Part shown: piece by piece, positions 12,790 to 64,000 of the stretch
Numbering within the stretch: the first letter of the stretch is position 1
How the letters are laid out: each line of letters opens with the position of its first letter
Assembly (NCBI RefSeq): GCF_032854445.1
Contig: NC_088299.1
Location: forward strand, 11,463,608-11,527,607
Reading direction: 5' to 3'
Length of the DNA stretch: 64,000 nucleotides
Source: Liolophura sinensis
Lineage: Eukaryota > Mollusca > Polyplacophora > Chitonida > Chitonidae
The notes under the pieces: model-generated
Databases searched by the model: none
What the model was told of the DNA's origin: nothing
What the model saw: the letters and a program-made list of their open reading frames with translations, nothing else
Program-made: the position numbers and the translations under genes

Positions 12790-13915
12790 TGCACATGTAT
12801 GTTGACAAACCTGGTAGAAAACCACTGCTCATTGGTCAAATACTAGACAAACCTGGGAGAAAGCCACTGTGCATAGGCCAAATACCTGATAAACCTGGTA
12901 GAAAACCACTGTGTATTGGTAAAACACCTGACAAACCTGATAGATAACCACTGTAAATTGTTCAAGTATCTGACAAACCTGGGAGAAAGCCACTGTGCAT
13001 GTGCCAAATACCTGACAAACCTGGAAGAAAGCCACTGTGCATTGGTCAAAAACCTGACGAACCTGACAGATAACCACTGTACATTGGTCAAATACCTGAC
13101 AATCTTGGTAGAAAACCACTGTGCATTGTCCAAATACCTGACAAATCTGGTAGAATGCCACAGTGCATTGGTCAAAAACCTGACAAACCTGGGAGAAAAC
13201 TACTGTACATTGGCCAAATATCTGGCAAATCTGAGAGAAAACCACTGTACATTGGTCAAAAATCTCACAAGCCTGGTAGAAAACCAGTGTACTTTGGTCA
13301 AAAACCTAACAAACCTAGTAGGAAACCACTGTGCATTGGTCAAGTATCTGTGAAACTTGGTAGAAAACCACTGTGCATTGGCCAAATACCTGACAAACCT
13401 GAGAAAAAGTCACTGTGCATTGGCCAAGCACCTGTCACACCTAATAAAAAGCCACTGTACATTGTGACAAACCTGGGCAAAAACTACTGTACACTGGTCA
13501 AATACCTGACAAACCTAATAGGAAACCACTGTGTGGATTGGCTGATAGCTGACAGAAACCACAAAACCGCTGTGTATTGACCAAATACCTATAACCCAGG
13601 TAGGAAACCATTACTTATTGGTCACATACCTCACAAATCTGAGAGAAAACACTGCCCATTGGCTAAATACCTGACAAACCTAGTAGAAAGCCACTGTGCA
13701 TTGTTCAAATACCTGACAAACCTGGGAGAAGCCACTGTGCATTGGTCAAATACCTGACAAACCTAGTAGAAACCACTGCTCATTGGCAAAATACCTGACA
13801 AACCTGCAGGAAAACCAATGCTCACTGGCCAAAAACATGACAAACCTGGTACAAGGCCACTGTGCATTGTTCAAGTATCTGACAAACGTGGTAGAAAGCC
13901 ACTGTCTCCATTGGT
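12790..13915. repeat. 42-bp minisatellite, ~26 copies
   Basis: Units read roughly 'aaatacctgacaaacctgg' then 'tagaaaaccactgtgcattgg', with scattered substitutions and small indels. Because 42 is a multiple of three, frames stay open for long distances on both strands (12829-13245 minus; 12916-13353 and 13155-13580 plus) with a 14-residue periodicity. No start context, splice sites or domain suggests that any frame is translated. Confidence 0.85.
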
Positions 13916-13984
13916 CAAATCTCAGGAGATTTCTCTCCTGATAATTACCAGCACAGAACCCAATGGATCAATGTCTTCTGCAAT

Positions 13985-14425
13985 GCTTCCAGCACACAAT
14001 CCCCATTGGTAAAAGGCCTGACAACTGGTGTGATTACAGCACACAACCCCATTGGTAAAAGGCCTGACAACTGATTACAGCACACATCCCAATTGGTAAA
14101 AGGCCTGACAACTGGTCTGATTACAGCACACCACCCCATTGGTAAAAGGTCTGACAACTGGTGTGATTACAGCACACAACCCAATTGGTAAAAGGCCTGA
14201 CAACTGGTGTGATTACAGCACACAACCCAATTGGTAAAAGGCCTGACAACTGGTGTGATTACAGCACACAACCCCATTGGTAAAAGGCCTATCAACTGGT
14301 GTTATTACAGCACACAACCCAATTGGTAAAAGGCCTGACAACTGGTCTGATTACAGCACACATCCCCATTGGTAAAAGGCCTGACAACTGGTCTGATTAC
14401 AGCACACAACCCCATTTACCACTGT
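13985..14425. repeat. 46-bp minisatellite, ~10 copies
   Basis: Tightly conserved units read 'cacacaaccccattggtaaa', then 'aggcctgacaactggtgtga' and 'ttacag'. It starts about 70 bp after the 42-bp array, and both units share 'attggt' and 'cctgacaa', so the arrays may be related in origin. Confidence 0.85.
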
Positions 14426-42600: not shown

Positions 42601-45600
42601 GGTAATGATGAAGTGAAATCTTTGCCAGGGTGACAGGAGTTGTCCTAAGACAGCCTGATGGGCCAGCTAAATTTTTTGACAGCAGGGAAGGGAAATTATG
42701 GTTTAAACATATACAAACTTTGGTGCTAAGGCTTGGTGGGTATAAAACAAAGTGGGAGTTAATTCATCTTTAGTTTGATCAATCTTTGTTATGCCCGTAA
42801 AGTGAAAGAAAAGCTATCCCATTGTGGTATCTCCTGTGGTCCAGTGAGCTTCTAGCAAACTGTGAAGTGTACATGTATATAAAAATAGCTGTTTGACAGC
42901 TACGGCAATGTTTGCCCTTGTGACCTGCTATTTAAGCTACTGGGCTTTAATCACACCAATTCATTTTCCGCCTTTACATATGGCTATTAACAAAGTTCTT
43001 ATAGTTTAAAGTACTTAACATATATGACATGCATATGTACAAACAAAAAGCAGGAAAGAGATGATTTAGAGCAGAAAATAAGTCCTCAGTACCCAACACT
43101 ATTAATACAGAATTCAAACATTTGATTCCCATTAATTTCAGTTGAAGAATTTATTTTTTTTATAAAAGTTGAGTGAAGATGTTTAATACAGCATTCAGTG
43201 ATGAGCATAATGATAGTTAAGATTAATATTAATATATTATGATCATTTTAATGGCATGATTTTTATGGAAATTATTTCTCTGATACTATAAATGTGTAAT
43301 GACATTGTTATAAAATTTAACTTTTATGTAATTCTCACACATAAATAAATTAAGATTTTTTTTATTAATTTAACAATTTTTGTGAAGTAATGGTTAATCA
43401 ATGGTGTATAATATATGGAGTGTCCAAGGAGCAGTGAGGTCAGACTTGCCTGGCCTTAGACGGAACAAATTACACAGCCACCTTGTTGAAATCCTTGACA
43501 ATTGAAGTAACATTTAACAGAAATCATGAAGATAAACACCTACCATCTTGACTGAACTCACAGCAGCTAATTGACCCCTCATGACCTTTGGCCAGGATAT
43601 CTGGGCCTTGAGATCTACAGAGAAAAACAAAGACGATTAAAAACATGCGTTGAACATGTGTTACAAACTAAAAAAGTCTTTACCTGTATATAACTGTTGT
43701 AATGTCACATTAGCTAACAAAGTCTTTAACTGTATGAACCTGATGTAATGCCACATAAGCTAACACAATCTCTACCTGTATGTACCTGTTGTAATGCCAC
43801 ATAAGTTAACACAATCTCTACCTGTATGTACCTGTTGTAATGCCACATAAGCTAACATAGTCTCTACCTGTATGTACCTGTTGTAATGTTGCATTAGCTA
43901 ACAAAGTCTTCACCTATCTGTGCCTGTTGTAATGTGACATGAGATGAGGTCATTACCTATATGTACCTGTTGCAATGCCACATAAGCTAACACAGTCTTT
44001 ACCTGTATGTACCTGTTGCAATGTCACATGAGCTGAGGTCGTTACCTATAAGTACCTGTTATAATGCCACAGAAGCTAACACAGTCTCTAGCTGTATATA
44101 CCCGTTGTAATGCCACAGAAGCTAACACAGTCTGTACCTGTACGTACCTGTTTTAATGCCACGTGAGCTAACAGTCTCTACCTGTATGTACCTGTTGTAA
44201 TACCACATAAGCTAACAAAGTCTTTACCTGTATGTACCTGTTTTAATGCCACATGAGCTAACACAGTCTCTACCTGCATGTACCAGCTGTAATACCACAT
44301 AAGCTAATACAGTCTCTACTTGTATGCACCTATTGTAATGTCACATTAGCTGAGGTCTTTACCTGTATGTAGGGCCTACCTGTTGTAATGTCACATAAGC
44401 TAACAAAGTCTTTACCTGTTTATACCTATTGTAATGCCACATAAGCTAACACAGTCTCTACCTGTATGTACCTGTTGTAATGTCACATTAGCTAACAAAG
44501 TCTTTACCTGTATGTACCTGTTGTAATGTGACTTGAGCTGAGGTCGTTACCTATATGTACCTGTTGTAATGCCACATAAGCTAACACAGTCTTTACCTGT
44601 ATGTACCTGTTGTAATGTCACATAAGCTACCAAAGTCTTTACCTGCATGTATCTGCTATAATGTCACGTAAACATCAAAACTAAAAAAGTCTTTACCTGT
44701 ATGTACCTGTTGTAACATCCCAGATTTTAACAGTTTTGTCCCAAGAGGCAGTGGCAAATTTTCTCTCATCTGGTGACATGGCACAGCTGGCTATGATGTT
44801 AATGTGGCCACTGAAATAGACAAATTTACTGCAAACAGTTTTGATATATTATAACAAACCTTATTTAAGCACAACAGCTTTCCAATGCTACAGTACACTA
44901 GCAGTAGCTGGCAAGAATGTCCATTTAGCTCAGATGGTACAGCTCGTTCTGGCAATGTAATGGGAGCTGCTATCCAGCGCTATAGTGGACAAGCAGTAGC
45001 TGGCAAAAATATCCCTTTAGCTCAGTTGGTACATCTAGTGCTGGCAATGTAAGGGGAGCAGCTATCCAGCATTACAGTAGACTAGCAGTAGTTGGCAAGA
45101 ATGTCCATTTAGCTCAGTTGGTACAGCTAGTGCTGGCAATGTAAAGGGAGCAGCTACCCAGTGCTACAGTGGACTTACAGTAGCTGACAAGAATGTCCAT
45201 TTAGCTCAGTTGGTACATCTAGTGCTGGCAATGTAAGTGGAGCAGTATCCAGTGCTACAGTGGACTAGCAGTAGCTGGCAAGAATGTTCCTTTAGCTCAG
45301 TTGGTACAGCTAGTGCTGGCAATGTAAGGGGAGCAGCTATCCAGTGCTACAGTGGACTAGCAGTAGCTGACAAGAATGTCCCTTTAGCTCAGTTGAAACA
45401 GCTAGTGCTGGCAATGTAAGGGGAGCAGCTATCCAGCAGTACAGTTGACTAGCAGTAGTTGGCAAGAATGTTCCTTTAGCTCAGTTGGTACAGCTAGTGC
45501 TGGCAATGTAAGGGGAGCAGCTATCCAGTGCTACAGTGGACTAGCAGTAGCTGACAAGAATGACTCTTTAGCTCAGTTGGTACTGCTAGTGCTGGCAATG

Positions 45601-48600
45601 TAAGGGGAGCAGCTATCCAGTGCTACAGTGGACTAGCAGTAGCTGACAAGAATGTCTCTTTAGCTCAGTTGGTACAGCTAGTGCTGGCAATGTAATGGGA
45701 GCAGTTATCCAGTGCTACAGTGGACTAGCAGTAGCTGACAAGAATGTCTCTTTAGCTCAGTTGGTACAGCTAGTGCTGGCAATGTAAGGGGAGCAGCTAT
45801 CCAGCGCTACAGTGGACTAGCAGTAGTTGGCAAGAATGTCCATTTAGCTCAGTTGGTACAGCTTGTGCTGGCAATGTAAGGGGAGCAGCTACCCAGCGCT
45901 ACAGTGGACTTACAGTAGCTGACAAGAATGTCAATTTAGCTCAGTTGGTACATCTAGTGCTGGCAATGTAAGTGGCGCAGTATCCAGTGCTACAGTGGAC
46001 TAGCAGTAGCTGGGAAGAATGTTCCTTTAGCTCAGTTGGTACATCTAGTGCTGGCAATGTAAGTGGAGCAGTATCCAGTGCTACAGTGGACTAGCAGTAG
46101 CTGGCAAGAATGTTCCTTTAGCTCAGTTGGTACATCTAGTGCTGGCAATGTAAGGGGAGCAGTTATCCAGTGCTACAGTGGACTAGCAGTAGCTGACAAG
46201 AATGTTCCTTTAGCTCAGTTGGTACAGCAGGTGCTGACAATGTAAGGGGAGCAGCTATCCAGTGCTACAGTGGACTAGCAGTAGCTGGCAAGAATGTTCC
46301 TTTAGCTCAATTGGTACAGCTAGTGCTGGCAATGTAAGGGGAGCAGCTATCCAGTGCTACAGTGGACTAGCAGTAGCTGGCAAGAATGTCCCTTTAGCTC
46401 AGTTGGTACTGCTAGTGCTGGCAATGTAAGGGGAGCAGCTATCCAGTGCTACAGTGGACTAGCAGTAGCTGGCAAGAATGTTCCTTTAGCTCAATTGGTG
46501 CAGCTAGTGCTGGCAATGTAAGGGGAGCAGTTATCCAGTGCTACAGTGGACTAGCAGTAGCTGACAAGAATGTTCCTTTAGCTCAGTTGGTACAGCTGGG
46601 CCTCAGATTTGGAGACCTGAGTTCAAATCCCTTTATACACCAAGGAAGAAATCCATCAATCATTACACAGGTAAGGTTACAAGCTGGTGCCTTTTTTTAA
46701 AAAACAAAACACAGCCGGTTTAGGTTGATTTATAACCCTGATTACGATTAGTCCAGAGACTGCATGTTTTCATTTCAAATCTACAACCTCTAAGTAATTT
46801 CAGGACATAAATCTTAGGACAAGTTGAACAGAATTTACTCACTGCAGTCGTAAGGTGCTGGTTTTTGTTTTAAGATCCCAGAAATTTGTGGACTTGTCCA
46901 TGGAGGTGGTTATAATCCTGGTGTCATTGGGGGAGAAAATACAGCTTGTGATAGTTCTGCTGTGGATATCTGGCAAAACAAAACTCAGAGTGAAGATCAA
47001 AGAAGTCACAGCGGGGTTACCATAATCTCAGAAAAGGGGAGGTAATCACTAGCTCTTAAATTCAAGAGCACTGAAATACACCTTTGGCTTACGTCCTCAG
47101 TTACGTGAATATGAACATAAACAGAACCGACAAAAGCACGAACGCCACTATTTTTATATGAAAACGACAAGGTTAAACCTGAGTGCCATCTACCTGCGCA
47201 CAAAATATAAGTGAGTACAATGATAAAGACAAATCAAACAAATATGTGCATGTCACATAGCAATCCAGCCAGTGTGTGGCTTTTCTGTTACCGTCTAATT
47301 TGTGGATTGTCTCCCCTGAGCTTGTGTCCCACACCTTCAGACAGTTGTCTATATCAGAGCCAGTGACAATGAGCTTCCCATCATGAGAGATGTCACAGCA
47401 GGTCAGCACACCATCATGTTTTCCTGTCCACTGAAAGTCCCAAACCATTGACATCTAACACATTTGTGTCTTAAATCAAATCCCTAAGGCTTACTGACAT
47501 CTACTTTCGTTCACTGTGTGACGGCCACAATTACTGCAGTATTCCAGGTTTGTTAGGTAGATAACATTGCAATGCCTGGTGATATCCCCCGCCCATAAAC
47601 CTGATTGTAATTTTAGACTGGAAATGACAATTAAATCATAACTTAAACCAGTCTTATAACTATGGTGCTTTTGAAAACACCAATCAAGTAAATATTCCAA
47701 TGCAGAAAACAAGTTCTAACATCTTTATGTCTTCACATTTTTACAGATAGGTGAACGTGTTATTGTATTAACTTGAAGAGAAAATACATGTACATATATA
47801 CATGTATGAGACTGCTCATCTTACTTTATATGACAGAAGCAGCAAAACCATTTCCTCAGCTAAGTATCAAATAAGGCATGGGTCCAGGAACTACTTTAAA
47901 ATAATGACTGCTATGCAGAAAAAAACTGCTTGAGCCACAATCTTGTTCAACTAGAAATATATCTTGCTACAAATCAGAAATTTCATTACCAGTATCTTGC
48001 CTGATTCTACATCCCACACATGCACTTTCTTGTCCCAGCCAGCAGTAACAAGTCTATTAACAAATAAATCATGAGAAATTATTAGACCCAGTCTGTGTGA
48101 GGTCCCTGGAGTCCTAGATGTGATAACTTTAACAGTAAAAGCACCTGAGGTTTAAATGAGCTGCCTAATTTTAATTTCAATCTAGGTGACATACCTAGAA
48201 ATGAAATCATCAGGTTGAATAAATGGAGCTATTTTTAGCTTCTGTTGTAATTTTTATATTAATTGGTTTAAAACTGTTTTCATCTGTAACTTGGGCTTAA
48301 TTACATCTATCCTAGATCCTGATTCTGCCATCCTATCCATGCGTATCATTATCACTTTGCCCCCTGACAGCTTCGGTACGAGTAAAACCTCAACTATACA
48401 GGAATACTGTAGTTTATTTATTTGATTCGTAGTTTACACTGTACTCAGGACTATTTCACTTATACAACGGCATCCAGGGTTATGGTGGGAGGAAACCGGG
48501 TAGAGCCTGGAGGAAACCGACGATAATTCACAGGTTACTGCCACCAAGACCTTCCACTTACAGCTACATACTGTAATTCTTCAATCTTTCCACATGTTTG

Positions 48601-54300: not shown

Positions 54301-57300
54301 GTAGACTTTACGGTGAACATGCTTTACCCCTCTGATGATCAGAAATGACACATCTCCCTTAGGTGCGTTCACCTAAGGGAGCTGTTTCATTTGTCATCTC
54401 CCTCCTATTTGTGTGGTAAGCGTGTTGGTCGAGTGGTTAGACGGTTGACATGTATTGCTGGCGATTTGGTGTCCTGACTCTGAGGTTACTGGTTCGAAAC
54501 CCACAGTGGTCTCAGCCAATTTTCAGCACTAGAAAGTGTAATCCTAATAACAATGGTACTGTTACTTAATCCAGTTCCTAAATGATTTATTACATGTAAT
54601 AAAGAAGACAAAATGAATGCAAAATAGCTCAATGATTTTTGTGTGAAGGTAAATTTCAAAATTGAGATGGCTGCAGTGTTAAACAAATATTGATCGGTAT
54701 CTGTCCCCAGAGCCAGATGGCCTAAGGCACTGCAAATCTTTAATCAATTAAGATTTCAGCCTGTGTTTTTTTCAGGAATAACATTTGTTTGCTGCTTGTT
54801 GAAAACAGGATCCTAAATACGATCATGATTGTTTTTTGAAGTAAGAAGTCCATATATTAGAGAGCTTATATATGTAGATAAGCCTGTTTCAGTTGATGTC
54901 TTGATCTCGTGGACAGCACTTGGACAAGTCAGCTGTGGCTTGCTCTGAGCATGCAGGCACGACCACCTGATTTGCCTGAAGCATCTGACTTGTGGTCTAC
55001 CCGTTAAGCTGGCAAACCAACATGTCTACTGCAGTGTCTTTAATTCCCATGGGAATGAATGATATTAACAAAGTGTTTACTGAATGATGAGCTGGTTTTC
55101 CTTCTTTTGTTTTTTAACAGCTTGGTGCAATGGTTGAAGTACAGCAGAAAAGAATATTGTGAGCTATGTAAACACAGATTTGCCTTCACACCAAGTAAGT
55201 GTGTTTACTTTTAATAATTCATTATCTTTACCAACTAAAAAATGATTATTAAACATGGAAATGTACATACTAAATTTGTTACAGTTTATGAATGTGTTAT
55301 TTTCACCATTATGTGACCTCAGAAGGCCTGACCTCAACTACTGGTACATGTATTAGATCTGGCGGAGTTTCTGTACATGTATGTGTTGATATACACTTAT
55401 GTGACATGAAAACAAGAAATATTGTTTATTGCGCAACAGTTTTATTTATTTATTTTCTGTGTATTTTCTCTTCTCTCTAACCTATCTTATTGGGGTAGGG
55501 AACCTACATCTACTTATTGTTATCTGTCATCCAGTATACTCGCCTGACATGCCCAAGAGGCTGCCAGTGAAGGATATCCTTGGGGGACTCCTATCCAGTA
55601 TAGGCAAGGCTGTACGCTATTGGTTCCATTACACTCTTGTGGCATTTGCTTGGCTTGGTGTTGTACCTCTTACAGCATGTAAGTATGCAAAATGTCTACT
55701 TTTGCTAGATAAGAAAATTACATGTGGACATATATATAGGTAATGGCATACTTGGAACAAAATTAAGTGACAGTGATGAAGCGTCTCCAGTAGCATGCCT
55801 TGAGATATCAGTCACATGGAAGCCAGGTGTACACAAGCCTAGGACTATTGTAAATTTGGAATGATAAACACAGATATCAGTCACATGGAAGCCAGGTGTA
55901 CACAAGCCTAGGACTATTGTAAATTTGGAATGATAAACACAGATATCAGTCACATGGAAGCCAGGTGTACACAAGAATAGAGCTATTGTAAATTTGGAAT
56001 GATAAACACATATATCAGTCAAATTGAAGCCAGGTGTACAAAAGCATAGGGCTATTGTAAATTTGGAATGATAAACACAGATATCAGTCACATGGAAGCC
56101 AGGTGAACACAAGCATAAGGGCTATTGTAAATTTGGAGTGATAAACACAGATATCAGTCACATGGAAGCCAGGTGTATATTTTTATAGACAAGGTTTATA
56201 AAATAAGTCATTAATTTACCTGTGTACATCTGGTATGGCTTTTTGTTTTTTACAAAAGCTTCATTTAAGACAGAGGTGAATAAGGTCATATCTCTTTATT
56301 CTTCGAGACACACCACTTCAAACTCACTCTTCAAAAACACTGACTAAATCCCAACCCCCCCACCTCCTAAAGAGTTGATCATTATATGTTATAAGATGTA
56401 TGTGTTTTGTATTTGCCAGGTCGTATATACAGATGTTTGTTTACGGGATCGGTCAGCTCTCTGCTTACCCTGCCTCTGGACATGCTGTCAACGTAAGTAT
56501 CTGAAGAACGTGTATTTTCATCATTTGTTACGTTCTCAAGACAACAGATTCAGCACTGCGTTACAAGTGTAACATAGAATAAAAAAATCTGTTAGTAAAC
56601 TGTTTCTAAGACACAGTGCAAAGGCATATCTCAACTGAACATCTTACATATACCTTGGTGTTTTTTTTGTGCGGACAAAATATGTTATCTGACTGTTTTC
56701 TGGGTGTTTTTCATGTGGGCAGAATGTGTTGGCTAACTGTTTCCATGACACAGTACAGAGGTACATGTATATCCCAATTGAACATTGTACCTTGGTGTTT
56801 TTCATGTGGACAGAATCTGTTGTCTGTTTCCATGACACAGTACAGAGGTAAGTGTTTATCTCAAATGAGCATTGCTCAGTCAGTTAGCGTGCTAGTGCAG
56901 CGTAATGACCCAGGAGCCTCTCACCAATGCGGTCGCTGTGAGTTCAAGTGCAGCTCATGCTGGCTTCCTCTCCGGCCGTAAGTGGGAAGGTCTTCCAGCA
57001 ACCTGCGGATGGTCGTGGGTTTCCCCCGGGCTCTGCCCGGTTTCCTTCCACCATAATGCTGGCCGCCGTCGTATAAGTGAAATATTCTTGAGTACGGCGT
57101 AAAACACCAATCAAAAAAAAAAAAAAAAAATCAAATGAGCATTGTACCATGGGGTTTTTCTTGCAGAGAGAACCTGTTATCGGACTGTTTCCAGGGCTGT
57201 TTTGTGGTGACCTGTACTCTCTGTGCATTTATTAGTCTGGTGTGGCTGAGAGAACAGATCTTACATGGAGGAGGTCCTGATTGGCTGGAGCAAGAGCATC

Positions 57301-60300
57301 GACCAGCCAATCAACAACGGGTAATAACAGCAGTGTTGTCCTTCTTGGTACATATGGATCAGTCACAAAACAAGCTACAAGATGAATATGTATTTAACAT
57401 TCTAGTTTTCCTGCCCCGACCTATAATTTTGTCAGAAGAACAAGTTTGTGACATGTTATAAAGGTTAATAAGTTTTTTTTATTGTTTTTTTTTAGTTAAC
57501 TAGAGGCTTGAGGCATTGGTTTTCTTTTCTTTTTTTGATTTTATTTATTTGATTGGTGTTTTACACCATTATCAAGAATATTTCACTTATACGATGGCGG
57601 GCAGCTTTATGATGGAAGAAAACCAGACAGAGCGAAGGGAAAACTCACAACCATCAGCAGTTTTATTTAATTACGCCTATTCATTGAGCCTTCAGGATAT
57701 ACAGCTTACAAATATACACAGCATGTAGCTTCTTGACATTTTTGGCAGGTGATATTATTTACAATTATACTATAAAAATGACAGGGCTTTCAAAAAACTA
57801 CCAAAAAAAACATTGATTAAATAGAAAGTAAAGAAAAGAAAAGTTAACATAAATTGGTACTGCTCTGTTGCGATTCAGAATGCTGGAGAAGGAGGTTTTG
57901 TCAACAACCTTGCTGCAGAGTTCGGGGCGGCACCTAGAGCAGCAGCTCAGCCGAATGATGAGAATGCTGTACCGCCCGCCCCTGCCGAGGGGGCTGAGGG
58001 GGCAGGAGAAGCTGATGGGGCTGCTAACAATGCCAACAATGGAGCCCAGGGTGAGTGCTTGAGGGAAAGGCATTTAGTAGGCCAAATTATCAAGGGTGTT
58101 TACCTTTTAATAGTGATGAATGGTGACATCAGAGTGGTACTTTTAGGTGTGTGGGGTAGCTATACTTTACTCCATTCAGACAACAAGTAATCAGTGCTAT
58201 AAAGTTAAAAGAATAATATAAATATCAATGGAGTTTTTACAGTGTGCTTTAATAGAAAGACCATGCAAGAAAATAGTTTTATTGTTCAAGGATTTTTCCA
58301 AAGGAGTTTAGTATGGGCGTTTATAGTATTAGATTTTACAGTGGACTTTTTTGAGCAAAATCTTCCTTGTGGGACATTTTTTATATACTTTGTGCTGCTG
58401 GATAAAAGTAAAGTAAGAATTATTTGCTGTGTCTGTATAAGACATACAGGTAATCACACAACTGTAGTTCATCAGAATTCTGGGGCCTTCGTGGCTCCGT
58501 TGGTTAGCACGCTAGCACAGCATAATGACCCAGGAGTCTCTCACCAATGCGGTCGCTGTGAGGTCAAGTACAGCTCATACTGGCTTCCTCTCCAGTTGTA
58601 AGTGGGGAGGTCTGCCTGCAACCTGTGGAGCACTGTGGGTTTCCCCCAGGCTCTGCCCGGTTTCCTCGCATGATAATACTGGCCACCGTCATATAAGTGA
58701 AATATTGTTGAGTACAGATTTAACACCAGTCAGATAAATAAATAAATCAATCAATCATTAGAATACATGTGTAACACCCATCATTGAACTGAACATAGGA
58801 CAAGTTCTTAAATTCATACTGGTTTCATTTTCTGATCAGATGACAATAACTGGAACCCCATAGAGTGGGACAGAGCAGCTGAGGAGCTAACCTGGGAAAG
58901 GGTAAGTGTTCATGTCAGATTTAAACTAGACCACACAATTGTCTCTGTCATAACTGACAATAGCAGGAACTCTGGAGTGGGATAGAACAGCTGAAGAGCA
59001 GACCTGTGCAAGGGTAATTTTTAATGTCAGGGTTAAACTAGCTCACTTGATTGTGTCTGTCATATGTGACAATAACTGGAACTCCGCAGAATTGCACAGA
59101 GCAGCTGAGGAACTGACCTAGGAAAGTCACACAGTTGTCACATAATAAGTGACGTGAAACAAGAAAGCAAAAAGAACATGCGAGACAATTGTGTACAAAA
59201 CTTAATTACACTAACATGATGTGTCAAGGCTTGTCCTAATCCTGCAGACAGTGAAAGAAAGTGTCCCAAGATCACACACTAAAGCTCCAGTATCCTTTTC
59301 TGCGCTAGTACCACAGTCTGTACATAGAATGTACATTGTATCAGTTTACTTTTTCCAGGACTTATTTGAGTCAGTTTTATCTGATCTTTTTTTACAATTT
59401 AATCTGAAACCACTCTTAGGTTATGGCATACAGGCCCAATCACAGTAAGAAAAATAATATTCTATGCCCTTACCACTTTCTCGGAAAGTTACTTGCTTCA
59501 AAAAAGGCAGGGGTGTTTTTTTGTAGTTTGATCCGACATAGAGGCACTGTATTTTCAGCCTCTGAGAGTACAGCGAGCTTGCAATGCTGTCAGCCATGAT
59601 GAACAGGAAGTTAAGTAGAACATGTGGCTGATGAATTAGATGTAGGACAGAAAGCCAATCAAGGCCCTTGATCAAAGAAGTTTGGATTCATATGAAATTC
59701 GTATTCGTATTCTGAAATTCGTATTCTGAGATTTTCAGGGCTGTTGTGGAAGTATTTAACACATAGTGCGGTCTACTCTTTAGGTAGGGGAGATAACTCA
59801 AACTGACAAGTTTTAGAGTACCCAGTTCTCGAACCTCTTTTTTTTTTTTTCTGCAAAAAACACCAAAGACCAAATTTTAGTTGATGAAATGCCATTAATA
59901 CTGAAATTATTACAGGTAAATCAGTTTCCATAGCAGAAATTGTTGGCAATTGAAAAAATGTTTCCCAGGTCAAAAGTACACGGAACCAAAAAAACTGTTG
60001 CGCAGCAGTTCTGAAATCCTCCTGCCCATTGTTGTTGCAAACTCTTATTGGCTACGATTGGATATAACGTACTCAAGATAACTCTGATTATTTCCATCGC
60101 ACAACCAGTCACCATGAATTCCCTTTCTCTGTGTTAAATAGTTTAAAACTCTCCACCATTCAATTCATAATGACCACTGTCTATTAGCATACCATTGCAA
60201 CAGGTGCGGTTGACAATAGATATGAATGTTATACTTAGTCCTACCTGTTAGATGGAATATAATGATAATATTGCTGACAGTACTTTCATGTAAGACTACA

Positions 60301-60955: not shown

Positions 60956-63900
60956 TTCTTTTTCCAAACTTTTTATTAATAGTTTGTGGTATTGAATTTA
61001 CCATGATAAGTTACAGATCAGGTGTTAATTATGCCGTTTTACCCCAATTCTTCCAAGACACCTGATCCGCTCTTTTAGCCGATTTACATGTAATTGTAGC
61101 AGAAATATTTAGTGTCTTTTCACATGGTTAGTCCATCTAATGAACAACATATTCATATCTTTACTTTTAAAAAAAAATTTGGAGAGATATGTATAAATTC
61201 TTTGCATCCAGCACCATTAGTATCTGTTTTAAAACTAGGGTAGTTCTGTTGCACATTTTGACACACTTACTTACTTACCTTCCATTTTTTCATATTTTCA
61301 GCATTTTGCCCATACCACATTGGCCAGTTTACTTTAGTAGGTTTGAAGGCTGATGAAATGGTAAGGATGAAGGCATCTGAACAGATGAAAAGTCGTGTGT
61401 TAAGTCCTTTGAGCTATAAATATTCATGTTTACCAAAATATAAAATCAATTTTTGAACACTTTTTCTCTATGATATGAATAACCAGTAATGCTGTCTTCT
61501 TTTGTTCTCATCAACTTATTTTGTCAGTGAAATTAGTCCTAAATTTTAATTTACCAAGTCAATACGACAAGTTGCACTATGTGAACACTGTTTCAGCTGA
61601 TCACTACTGAACTTCTCAGTTAAGTACACCGGCAACCGTTTGATTTCTATCTCTCTCTCTCTCCACAGGTCTTGGCGTCACATTTTGAGGGTTTGTTGAC
61701 AGCGCTGACCGGCTATGTGGTCATATCCATATCTCTGGTCATCTTGTATTTTCTCTGTTCCCTGGCCAGGCTCAAAAGGTACATCTGCTTCTCTGACTTG
61801 AATGTGATTGTAACATCATGGACTTTTATTAAGAACTTACAATTTATGACTTGCTTCGGGAATTTACCTTTCAGTAATTAATGCTCAGAAAATGTAATTA
61901 GAAGTTGCATAGAACTTCAGCAGCGCAGGGTCAAGAAACTGTTTTAGATTCAAGTCAGTTTTAGCCTTAATCCGTTGTATGATTCCCAAACGTAGATGTA
62001 TGTTTGAAGTTAGTTGTAAACTTTCAATATTGTCATAAAAGTTCAAGGCAAATCTACGAATTAAGATAAAAATTACTAAGGTAAGTCATAGTAGTAGTGC
62101 AGTGAAGTGGTTTGAGGTTAAGACTAAATCTTCTGTAAGTCTAAGACAGCTTTGTGTTCCTGGGTCCAGGTCATATGCTTTTACCATGTAGACATAAGTA
62201 GTTAATATTTGGTGAACTTTGAAAGTTATAATTAACTTGAGTAAGACATAAAAGTTACAAGGGATGTTAAAGTTACAAGTCACTTCAGTTATTATATTAA
62301 CCTGTATAGATATATGTTATTTGTTTGTTTATTGGATTGGTGTTTTATGCCATACTCATGAATATTTCACTTATGTGGCGGCGGCCAGCATTATGGTGGG
62401 TGGAAACAGGGCAGAGCCCAGAGGAAACCCACGACCATCCGCAGGTTGCTGAGGACCTTCTCACATATGGCTGGAGAGGACGCCAGCATGAGCTGGCGTC
62501 CAATGTAGATTGTTCTTTTGAAGGATGTGCCAATGTAGAATGCACCTGTGTAGGGTCTACCTTTGTAGGATATGCCTGTGTAGGACATAGGCAAAGAGAT
62601 GTGTAGTGTGTGCCTGTGTAGGATTTACCTGTATAGGGTGAATCCCATTTGGATGCAGCTCTGCCTATGTAGGATTTACCTGTATAGGATATACCTGTAT
62701 AGGATATATCCATTTGGATGCAGCTCTACCTGTGTAGGATGTACCTTTATAGGATGTATCCATTAGGATGCAGCTCTACCTGTGTAGGATTTACCTGTAT
62801 AGGATGTATCCATTAGGATGCAGCTCTACCTGTGTAGGATTTACCTGTATAGGATATATCCATTTGGATGCAGCTCTACCTGTGTAGGATGTACCTGTAT
62901 AGGATATATCCATTTGGATGCAGCTCTACCTGTGTAGGATTTACCTGTATAGGATGTATCCATTAGGATGCAGCTCTTTGTGTAGGATTTACCTGTATAG
63001 GATGTATCCATTTGGATGCAGCTCTACCTGTGTAGGATTTACCTGTATAGGATATATCCATTTGAATGCAGCTCTACCTGTGTAGGATTTACCTGTATAG
63101 GATATATCCATTTGGATGCAGCTCTACCTGTGTAGGATTTACCTGTATAGGATGTATCCATTTGGATACAGCTCTACCTGTGTAGGATTTACCTGTATAG
63201 GATATATCCATTTGGATACAGCTCTGCCTGTGTAGGATTTACCTGTATAGGATATATCCATTTGGATGCAGCTCTACCTGTGTAGGATTTACCTGTATGG
63301 GATATATCCATTTGGATGCAGCTCTACCTGTGTAGGATTTACCTGTATAGGATGTATCCATTTGGATACAGCTCTACCTGTGTAGGATTTACCTGTATAG
63401 GATATATCCATTTGAATGAAGCTCTACCTGTGTAGGATTTACCCGTATAGGATATATCCATTTGGATGCAGCTCTACCTGTGTAGGATTTACCTGTATAG
63501 GATGTATCCATTTGGATGCAGCTCTACCTGTGTAGGATTTACCTGTGTAGGATATATCCATTTGGATGCAGCTCTACCTGTGTAGGATTTACCTGTATAG
63601 GATATATCCATTTGGATACAGCTCTACCTGTGTAGGATTTACCTGTATAGGATATATCCATTTGGATGCAGCTCTACCTGTGTAGGATTTACCGGTATAG
63701 GATATATCCATTTGGATGCAGCTCTACCTGTGTAGGATTTACCTGTATAGGATGTATCCATTTGGATGCAGCTCTACCTCTGTAGGATTTACCTGTATAG
63801 GATGTATCCATTTGGATACAGCTCTACCTGTGTAGGATTTACCTGTATAGGATATATCCATTTGGATGCAGCTCTACCTGTGTAGGATTTACCTGTATAG

Positions 63901-64000
63901 GATGTATCCATTTGGATACAGCTCTACCTGTGTAGGATTTATCTGTATAGGATATATCCATTTGAATGCAGCTCTACCTGTGTAGGATTTACCTGTAGAG
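51360..64000 (+). CDS. MARCHF6: E3 ubiquitin ligase MARCHF6 (TEB4/Doa10 family), 5' part
   Basis: Twelve coding exons lie in the window: 51360-51384, 53575-53671, 55121-55194, 55535-55678, 56420-56492, 57167-57320, 57879-58050, 58840-58901, 60325-60357, 60806-60857, 61302-61360 and 61669-61778. Phases agree, giving 351 residues of a protein of roughly 900. Residues 9-63 form a complete RING-CH domain, with C11, C14, C28, C30, H38, C41, C54 and C57 as metal ligands. Membrane segments follow near [41 protein letters not shown] and [12 protein letters not shown]. Between the second and third is a low-complexity Ala/Asn/Glu linker ending in the conserved NNGAQDDNNW and [12 protein letters not shown]. 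The family is an ER/nuclear-envelope ligase for ERAD, including sterol-synthesis enzymes. The last visible exon ends in AAAAG|GTACAT, and the next must lie beyond 64000 or the repeat array. Confidence 0.93.
52745..52885. mobile_element. MITE family 1 fragment
   Basis: Only the right-hand part remains: 'acttcctgcctcatcacc', 'gcgttgtttaagatttctgt', 'ggcggtgatgtaaagc'. It matches 2740-2860. It lies in MARCHF6 intron 1. Confidence 0.5.
54111..54561. mobile_element. Palindromic element with two inverted tRNA-like arms, copy 2
   Basis: Terminal inverted repeats of about 30 bp begin 'cagtattatcgttatgaggg' and end with the complement of 'ggattacactttct'. The right arm has 'ttggtcgagtggttagacgg' (54425-54444) and box B GGTTCGAAACC (54491-54501), a ~66-bp spacing like tRNAs with a long variable arm. 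The centre ('tcccttaggtgc' against 'cacctaaggga') is a tight hairpin. Possible 8-bp flanking repeats are ttacataa and ttacttaa. It lies in the MARCHF6 intron between exons 2 and 3. Confidence 0.72.
55795..56180. repeat. 69-bp minisatellite, ~5.5 copies
   Basis: The unit is 'cacatggaagccaggtgtac', 'acaagcctaggactattgta', 'aatttggaatgataaacaca', 'gatatcagt'. The length is a multiple of three, so the minus strand stays open (55705-56112) as an artefact. It begins ~115 bp after MARCHF6 exon 4. Confidence 0.88.
56577..56865 (+). repeat. Degenerate tandem copies of the MARCHF6 exon 6 acceptor region
   Basis: About four imperfect units resemble the 3' end of the intron plus the first bases of exon 6. 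The copies read 'gtttttcatgtggacagaat' then 'ctgttgtctgtttccatg'. The real junction is 'gtttttcttgcag|agagaac' then 'ctgttatcggactgtttcca'. Two full units are about 91 bp apart. All precede the SINE at 56876, which separates them from the functional acceptor at 57166. Confidence 0.7.
56876..57130 (+). mobile_element. Young full-length SINE type A with perfect target-site duplication
   Basis: This is the reference copy. The head is 'ctcagtcagttagcgtgcta' (box A-like), then 'gtcgctgtgagttcaagtgc' (box B region). The body contains 'ggtcttccagcaacctgcgg' and 'tccaccataatgctggccgc', the 3' end 'gtacggcgtaaaacaccaat', then an A-run of ~18. It is flanked by an exact 14-bp duplication, tcaaatgagcattg, at 56862-56875 and 57131-57144. 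It sits 36 bp upstream of MARCHF6 exon 6. Confidence 0.93.
57541..57665 (-). mobile_element. SINE type A 3' fragment (minus)
   Basis: Tail 'tttatttatttgattggtgt' and body 'tcaagaatatttcacttata', 'gagcgaagggaaaactcac'. It lies between MARCHF6 exons 6 and 7. Confidence 0.7.
58480..58750 (+). mobile_element. Full-length SINE type A (plus)
   Basis: A complete head ('ggggccttcgtggctccgtt', 'ggttagcacgctagcacagc') through to the tail 'cagataaataaataaatc'. Weak flanking similarity ('catcagaat' and 'cattagaat') may be a decayed target duplication. It ends ~90 bp before MARCHF6 exon 8. Confidence 0.85.
58950..59130 (+). pseudogene. Two decayed copies of MARCHF6 exon 8
   Basis: Exon 8 (58840-58901) and about 50 bp of the following intron are repeated twice more, starting near 58955 and 59067, with unit lengths of 114 and 112 bp. 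Copy 2 ('gagtgggatagaacagctga') has a 2-base deletion that shifts the frame to a stop. Copy 3 ('gcacagagcagctgagga') ends in 'acctaggaaag', with a stop replacing the Trp of TWER and no GT donor at the expected place. Neither copy has an AG acceptor at its start, so both should be skipped. Confidence 0.85.
60896..60949. repeat. (TA)n microsatellite
   Basis: About 25 TA dinucleotides in the MARCHF6 intron after exon 10. Confidence 0.95.
62315..62500 (-). mobile_element. SINE type A (minus) at the edge of the 50-bp array
   Basis: Tail 'tttgtttgtttattggattg', body 'gcggccagcattatggtggg' and 'ccatccgcaggttgctgagg', ending near 'ccagcatgagctgg'. The tandem array starts within 20-30 bp. Confidence 0.8.
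62515..64000. repeat. 50-bp minisatellite, ~29 copies, running off the window
   Basis: Regular units read 'ctctacctgtgtaggattta', 'cctgtataggatatatccat', 'ttggatgcag', with a 50-bp period from about 62700. The first ~190 bp are shorter, more diverged units. A g/a variant ('ggatgtatcc' or 'ggatatatcc') and 'gatgcag' or 'gatacag' alternate along the array, hinting at higher-order duplication. It lies in the MARCHF6 intron after exon 12 and continues past 64000. Confidence 0.93.

Follow-up and report, generated by a model that had tools for sequence, protein, structure and literature searches.

The 5' splice site of exon 6 in a WDR88-like gene of the chiton Liolophura sinensis (Polyplacophora) is repeated, together with the end of its exon, in a 46-bp tandem array that makes up almost the whole of intron 6. 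We consider it most probable (about 0.85) that this array is a tolerated minisatellite seeded at the donor, with the spliceosome normally using the first donor. The analysis covered one 64,000-nt stretch of L. sinensis DNA, referred to below as the window; positions of the features are collected in Table 1.

A ten-exon minus-strand model, completed by a final exon read from the frames, encodes a protein of 398 amino acids; along its full length, this matches at 100% identity a public L. sinensis database record (P0001, named "WD repeat-containing protein 88-like [Liolophura sinensis]"). The best listed non-self matches (P0002-P0040) show 51-60% identity at 87-98% query coverage; WDR88 names from at least one source are attached to 19 of these 39, nine are hypothetical or uncharacterized, and 11 are nameless. 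The best whole-length matches are WDR88 proteins of other animals, as expected of a WDR88 orthologue, and the name WDR88 given to the gene in an initial annotation, made from the DNA letters, agrees with this. That annotation also had exon 6 ending CAG/GTAAAGAC (a slash marks the exon-intron junction), which is where our model ends it. Splicing from the first donor of intron 6 yields exactly the 398-residue protein in public databases (100% identity). Joined to the acceptor ctctgtag/ATCTCA, the exon 6 donor produces the conserved TGxYR-SxGP junction; the modelled alternative donors do not.

Table 1. Features of the WDR88-like and MARCHF6-like genes, in positions of the window
Feature	Position	Strand	Details
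Exon 6, WDR88-like	44697..44810	-	114 nt; exon model, protein match, alignment; last 19 nt (44697-44715) equal the repeat consensus (unit 0)
Working donor GT, intron 6	44695..44696	-	ATACAG/GTAAAGAC, phase 2
Intron 6, WDR88-like	43615..44696	-	1,082 nt; exon model
46-bp tandem array	43668..44715	-	TRF: period 46, 22.8 copies, 79% matches; phase-locked decomposition
Exon-side 22-mer CAGGTAAAGACTTTTTTAGTTT	44678..44699	-	straddles the working donor
Second 22-mer CAGGTAAAGACTTTTTTAGTTT	43665..43686	-	acceptor-side array end; intron start of last copy at 43683, 69 nt before exon 7
Exon 7, WDR88-like	43544..43614	-	exon model; conserved SxGP...GHEGS
92-bp array, unrelated	44875..46597	-	18.8 copies; most of intron 5; does not reach a splice site; TRF, exon edges
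Second case, MARCHF6-like exon m8 (58840-58901)	58840..59084	+	decayed tandem repeats of the donor with its flanking exon end and intron start; TRF, sequence, self-alignment 36
Third case, acceptor side of MARCHF6-like exon m6 (starts 57167)	56657..57193	+	copied in the preceding intron; TRF, sequence, self-alignment 29

Phase-locked decomposition with 23 anchors resolved the array, whose unit is of minisatellite size, into the end of exon 6 (unit 0) and 22 intronic units. Hence the ~22 copies of the initial annotation, and its description of an array that begins at the functional donor and fills most of the intron, are both borne out. The last 19 bases of the exon and the first eight of the intron (-19 to +8) are identical to the consensus of intronic units 2-22, a run of 27 contiguous identical bases across the boundary; the array is contiguous with the exon end, and its unit carries the donor of that exon. 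The ~19 exon bases previously assigned to the unit prove to be its exactly matching part, and local alignment of the exon end with the unit extends at lower identity to exon position -36.

Two donor-like cores 10 nt apart, CAG/GTACAT (upstream) and CAG/GTAAAG (main), are present in the unit consensus; the upstream one was absent from the initial annotation. The main-core GT is kept in 20 of the 22 intronic copies and lost in two, and CAG/GTAAAGAC is exact in 8/22; exact CAGGTAAAGAC occurs in nine of the 23 units when the real donor is counted (8/22 decoys). At the upstream core, GT is kept at its fixed offset in 18/22 copies, and in unit 7 a 7-nt insertion shifts it away. The 22 copies sit at extensions of 54 to 1,013 nt past the real donor. 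Their earlier description as "~22 near-identical decoys" fits the eight that match the real donor over 11 nt, but not the two without GT. The motif CAGGTA occurs 29 times in intron 6, compared with a mean of 1.1 and a maximum of 7 in 300 first-order Markov resamplings, and three times in 8,362 nt from eight other introns of the gene. For CAGGTAAAG, the count in intron 6 is eight, compared with a resampled mean of 0.007 and maximum of 1, and none in those eight other introns. We conclude that the abundance of donor cores in intron 6 is not due to chance.

Exon 6 ends in phase 2 (AG) and the intron starts with G TAA, so the in-phase reading across the edge is AGG/TAA. Since G TAA follows the exon in phase, use of a downstream copy stops translation whatever the added length modulo 3. 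When exon 6 was extended to the main-core copies, all 22 modelled isoforms, of any length, ended in KTVKIWDVTTGTYR and a stop at the exon edge. Extension to the upstream-core positions, some of which are without GT, gave the same outcome (22/22), so that the 44 modelled longer isoforms all stop at the edge of exon 6 after TTGTYR. A ladder of isoforms 46 nt apart that mostly shift frame, which the initial annotation had entertained, is ruled out by these immediate stops; its observation of the array was accurate and its speculation on splicing half right. The upstream core inside exon 6 would shift the frame if used, and as the real exon end it is ruled out by this frame shift and by the loss of conserved residues. 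Only one of the 46 core positions (23 units with two each) gives the known protein. We infer that the spliceosome would normally take the first, exon-edge donor, defining exon 6 as a 114-nt exon, and that occasional use of a downstream copy would produce an mRNA with an immediate stop codon, presumably degraded. Such early-stop mRNAs would be candidates for nonsense-mediated decay.

Repeats of this kind are known from human genes, and the chiton case is not new in kind. The minisatellite of human IFI6 (6-16, G1P3) was reportedly described by Turri et al. in 1995. In IFI6, two downstream repeat units act as donors and are said to give different isoforms (PMC4526556), whereas the modelled chiton ones all stop. 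Intron 18 of human ABCA7 contains a VNTR of 25 bp, with 23.7 units in the reference genome, that starts at, and includes, the exon 18 donor GT. An effect of VNTR length on splicing was shown in RNA, the first donor is canonical, and retention of one unit, also seen in RNA, shifts the frame and leads to a premature stop (PMC5954066). Unlike the chiton unit, which includes exon bases, that of ABCA7 begins at the GT, and the chiton stop, in the modelled isoforms, is immediate and independent of unit length. In human CBS, a 31-bp VNTR, c.1444_1467+7(16_21), is polymorphic, with 16-21 copies (PMC2630376); going by the HGVS name, the unit would span the final exon bases (1444-1467) and the intron up to +7, and each copy should carry the donor. 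The CBS repeat has a unit of 31 bp, lies in another gene and is a known polymorphism, whereas the chiton array is known from one sequence. Judged by its sequence, the chiton array is of the CBS/ABCA7/IFI6 kind in its minisatellite-size unit and its donor-carrying contiguity with the exon end, so the architecture of these human genes is now shown in a mollusc. The extracts consulted of one paper bearing on the Liolophura genome and introns (PMC12005716) do not mention the array locus; according to them, other chitons, such as Acanthochitona, Callochiton and Deshayesiella, have sequenced genomes.

We calculated U1 duplex energies, with an assumed sequence for the U1 5' end, for the real and copied donors. 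The value for the real donor (-8.3) is equalled by eight intronic copies with the same core and surpassed by one upstream-core copy (-9.3); across the gene's ten donors, the energies lie between -5.1 and -11.0. As modelled, U1 pairing does not favour the real donor over its copies. The intron offers a natural experiment in 5' splice-site competition, with the real donor facing eight copies that match it over 11 nt, and the readout is simple: of the modelled donors, the first alone makes the full-length protein. No hiding of decoys in RNA structure was seen, predicted local structure failing to separate real from copied donors; the probability that the donor 9-mer is unpaired is low throughout (real site, 0.010; copies, 0.001-0.147). 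Over units 2-22, the GT columns average 95% identity and the two 9-base donors 89% and 92%, compared with 90% for all 46 columns. Purging of decoy GTs is ruled out, no depletion being found over these units, and the column identities give no sign of selection for or against decoys. Decoys are not being purged, nor are they visibly retained.

These data bear on the idea that leaky donor choice is a regulated off-switch, with unit number tuning the amount of full-length WDR88-like protein through one common truncated or degraded mRNA. The convergence of all 44 modelled decoy choices on the same stop and the equality of eight decoys with the real donor in U1 pairing would suit such a switch, and the length effect and one-unit retention in ABCA7 offer a precedent (PMC5954066). 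However, the decoys carry no sign of constraint, their two donors being about as variable as the unit as a whole, and we regard a regulated switch as unlikely. A length-coded version, in which U1 would bind along the array and unit number would set the share of pre-mRNA taking dead-end donors, seems quite unlikely; if it were true, output of WDR88-like protein would vary between chitons with repeat number.

A tolerated minisatellite would have arisen when a ~46-bp segment across the junction of exon 6 and intron 6, covering exon -19 to intron +19 or more, was tandemly duplicated; growth by duplication of units and blocks would then have produced the 22 intronic copies and lengthened the intron by ~1 kb. 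The outer limits of this seed are uncertain, since weak similarity extends beyond it in both directions. In local alignment, the exon end with the acceptor-side flank scored 34, compared with at most 18 among 500 base shuffles, and the exon end alone scored 20, compared with a maximum of 16 (500 shuffles). The 22-mer CAGGTAAAGACTTTTTTAGTTT is found in the window exactly twice on the strand of the gene, at both array ends, and never on the other strand; at the corresponding place, intronic units 2-22 begin with TTTGTTAG, TGTGTTAG, CTCAGC or variants. The presence of CAGGTAAAGACTTTTTTAGTTT at both array ends is expected if duplication of a boundary-straddling segment was followed by the appearance of further copies between the ends. 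We therefore read the two bookends as the mark of a duplicated exon/intron boundary. Unit 1, which adjoins the exon, has diverged furthest (mean identity of 0.67 to the other intronic units, compared with 0.69-0.85 for units 2-22). Blocks of units were probably copied too, because units 3-4-5 resemble units 16-17-18 (0.96, 0.86 and 0.96).

That the array was gained elsewhere, or is a mobile insertion, and matches the exon end by convergence on the donor consensus is very unlikely. Exon 2 of the same gene also ends AACAACAG/GTAAAG, and the donor consensus would account for ~9 of the matched bases, but 27 contiguous bases are identical and 19 of them are exonic; the 22-mer bookends weigh further against this already disfavoured reading. 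The initial annotation had named an exon end not homologous to the repeat unit as evidence against its reading; the alignment of the two did not bear this out.

The alignment of homologs took in 103 of the 120 listed matches. At the end of exon 6, 99 of the 102 aligned homologs retain G-x-[YF]-R, and the six junction columns are ungapped in all 102. On account of this conservation, the exon end came first, as ancestral coding sequence that precedes the array. The ungapped protein across the exon 6/7 junction (102/102 aligned homologs) is consistent with a single intron having lengthened. Another study (PMC4974935) describes intron gain through a tandem duplication that crosses an exon/intron boundary, and the duplication inferred for the chiton is likewise of this type; there a new intron arose, whereas in the chiton an intron appears to have lengthened and the coding sequence shows no new one. 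It is scarcely credible that several units serve as genuine alternative exon edges or as micro-exons (AG before, donor after) that add peptide, for although TTAG lies 30-38 nt before the main core in 16 of the 22 intronic units, every modelled extension isoform stops and the aligned homologs are without inserted residues at the junction.

The seeded minisatellite would be an undirected product of the repeat-rich genome around it and would be tolerated because its first copy remains functional. TRF arrays with units of at least 20 bp occupy 7,761 bases, or 12.1% of the window (merged). We mapped 40 splice junctions, 19 WDR88-like and 21 MARCHF6-like (excluding the final WDR88 exon and, in MARCHF6, the first exon and those beyond m12), sought a direct copy of the surrounding 60 bases within 3 kb of each, and counted scores of at least 29. 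Three junctions reached this threshold: the WDR88 exon 6 donor (35), the MARCHF6 m8 donor (36) and the MARCHF6 m6 acceptor (29). Among 1,000 random 60-mers of the window, which include positions inside arrays and so measure any site in this window, 12.5% scored as high, and ~5 of 40 would be expected. In this window there is thus no enrichment of tandem copies at splice sites (3/40 compared with 12.5%), and splice sites are not favoured targets of tandem duplication. Taken with the two milder cases in the neighbouring gene, the array is not special to splice sites, showing no excess over random 60-mers. The two smaller MARCHF6-like cases suggest that, in repeat-rich genomes, splice sites are routinely caught up in tandem duplications.

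The MARCHF6-like gene is the plus-strand neighbour of the WDR88-like gene, and its L. sinensis protein is P0121. The two genes look head-to-head, with ~470 bp between likely starts (50893 and 51360), the MARCHF6-like start resting on a short 11-residue match (E 0.44). In Solemya, Potamilus and Bradybaena, the two genes have consecutive record numbers, which suggests an old pairing. Within 58840-59122 (+), exon m8 and its donor come first, and two decayed tandem copies with a period of 112 follow in the intron; the second unit copy keeps GTAATT, and the third is without a donor. Protein P0121 holds the m8 segment once. Copies of the m6 acceptor side and exon start, at 56657-56874 and 57137-57193 (+), are an acceptor version of the same phenomenon.

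Other repeats in the window were also noted. The 92-bp array of intron 5 contains TTTAGCTCAGTTGGT, which we take to resemble a tRNA A box; a tRNA or Rfam origin of this array was rejected, ARAGORN and Rfam giving no match. A 50-bp array of 26.5 copies at 62677-63997, downstream of the last mapped MARCHF6-like exon and reaching almost to the window end, contains many TACCTG motifs (minus-strand CAGGTA); no exon boundary was identified at it. Further arrays, with units of 42, 46 and 69 bp, are found at 12803-14416 and 55803-56177; those of 42 and 69 bp carry open frames of more than 100 codons, the 42-bp one on both strands. Finally, a dispersed element at 62330-62530, with similar stretches near 56900-57090 and 58520-58690, seems to resemble a SINE common in molluscs.
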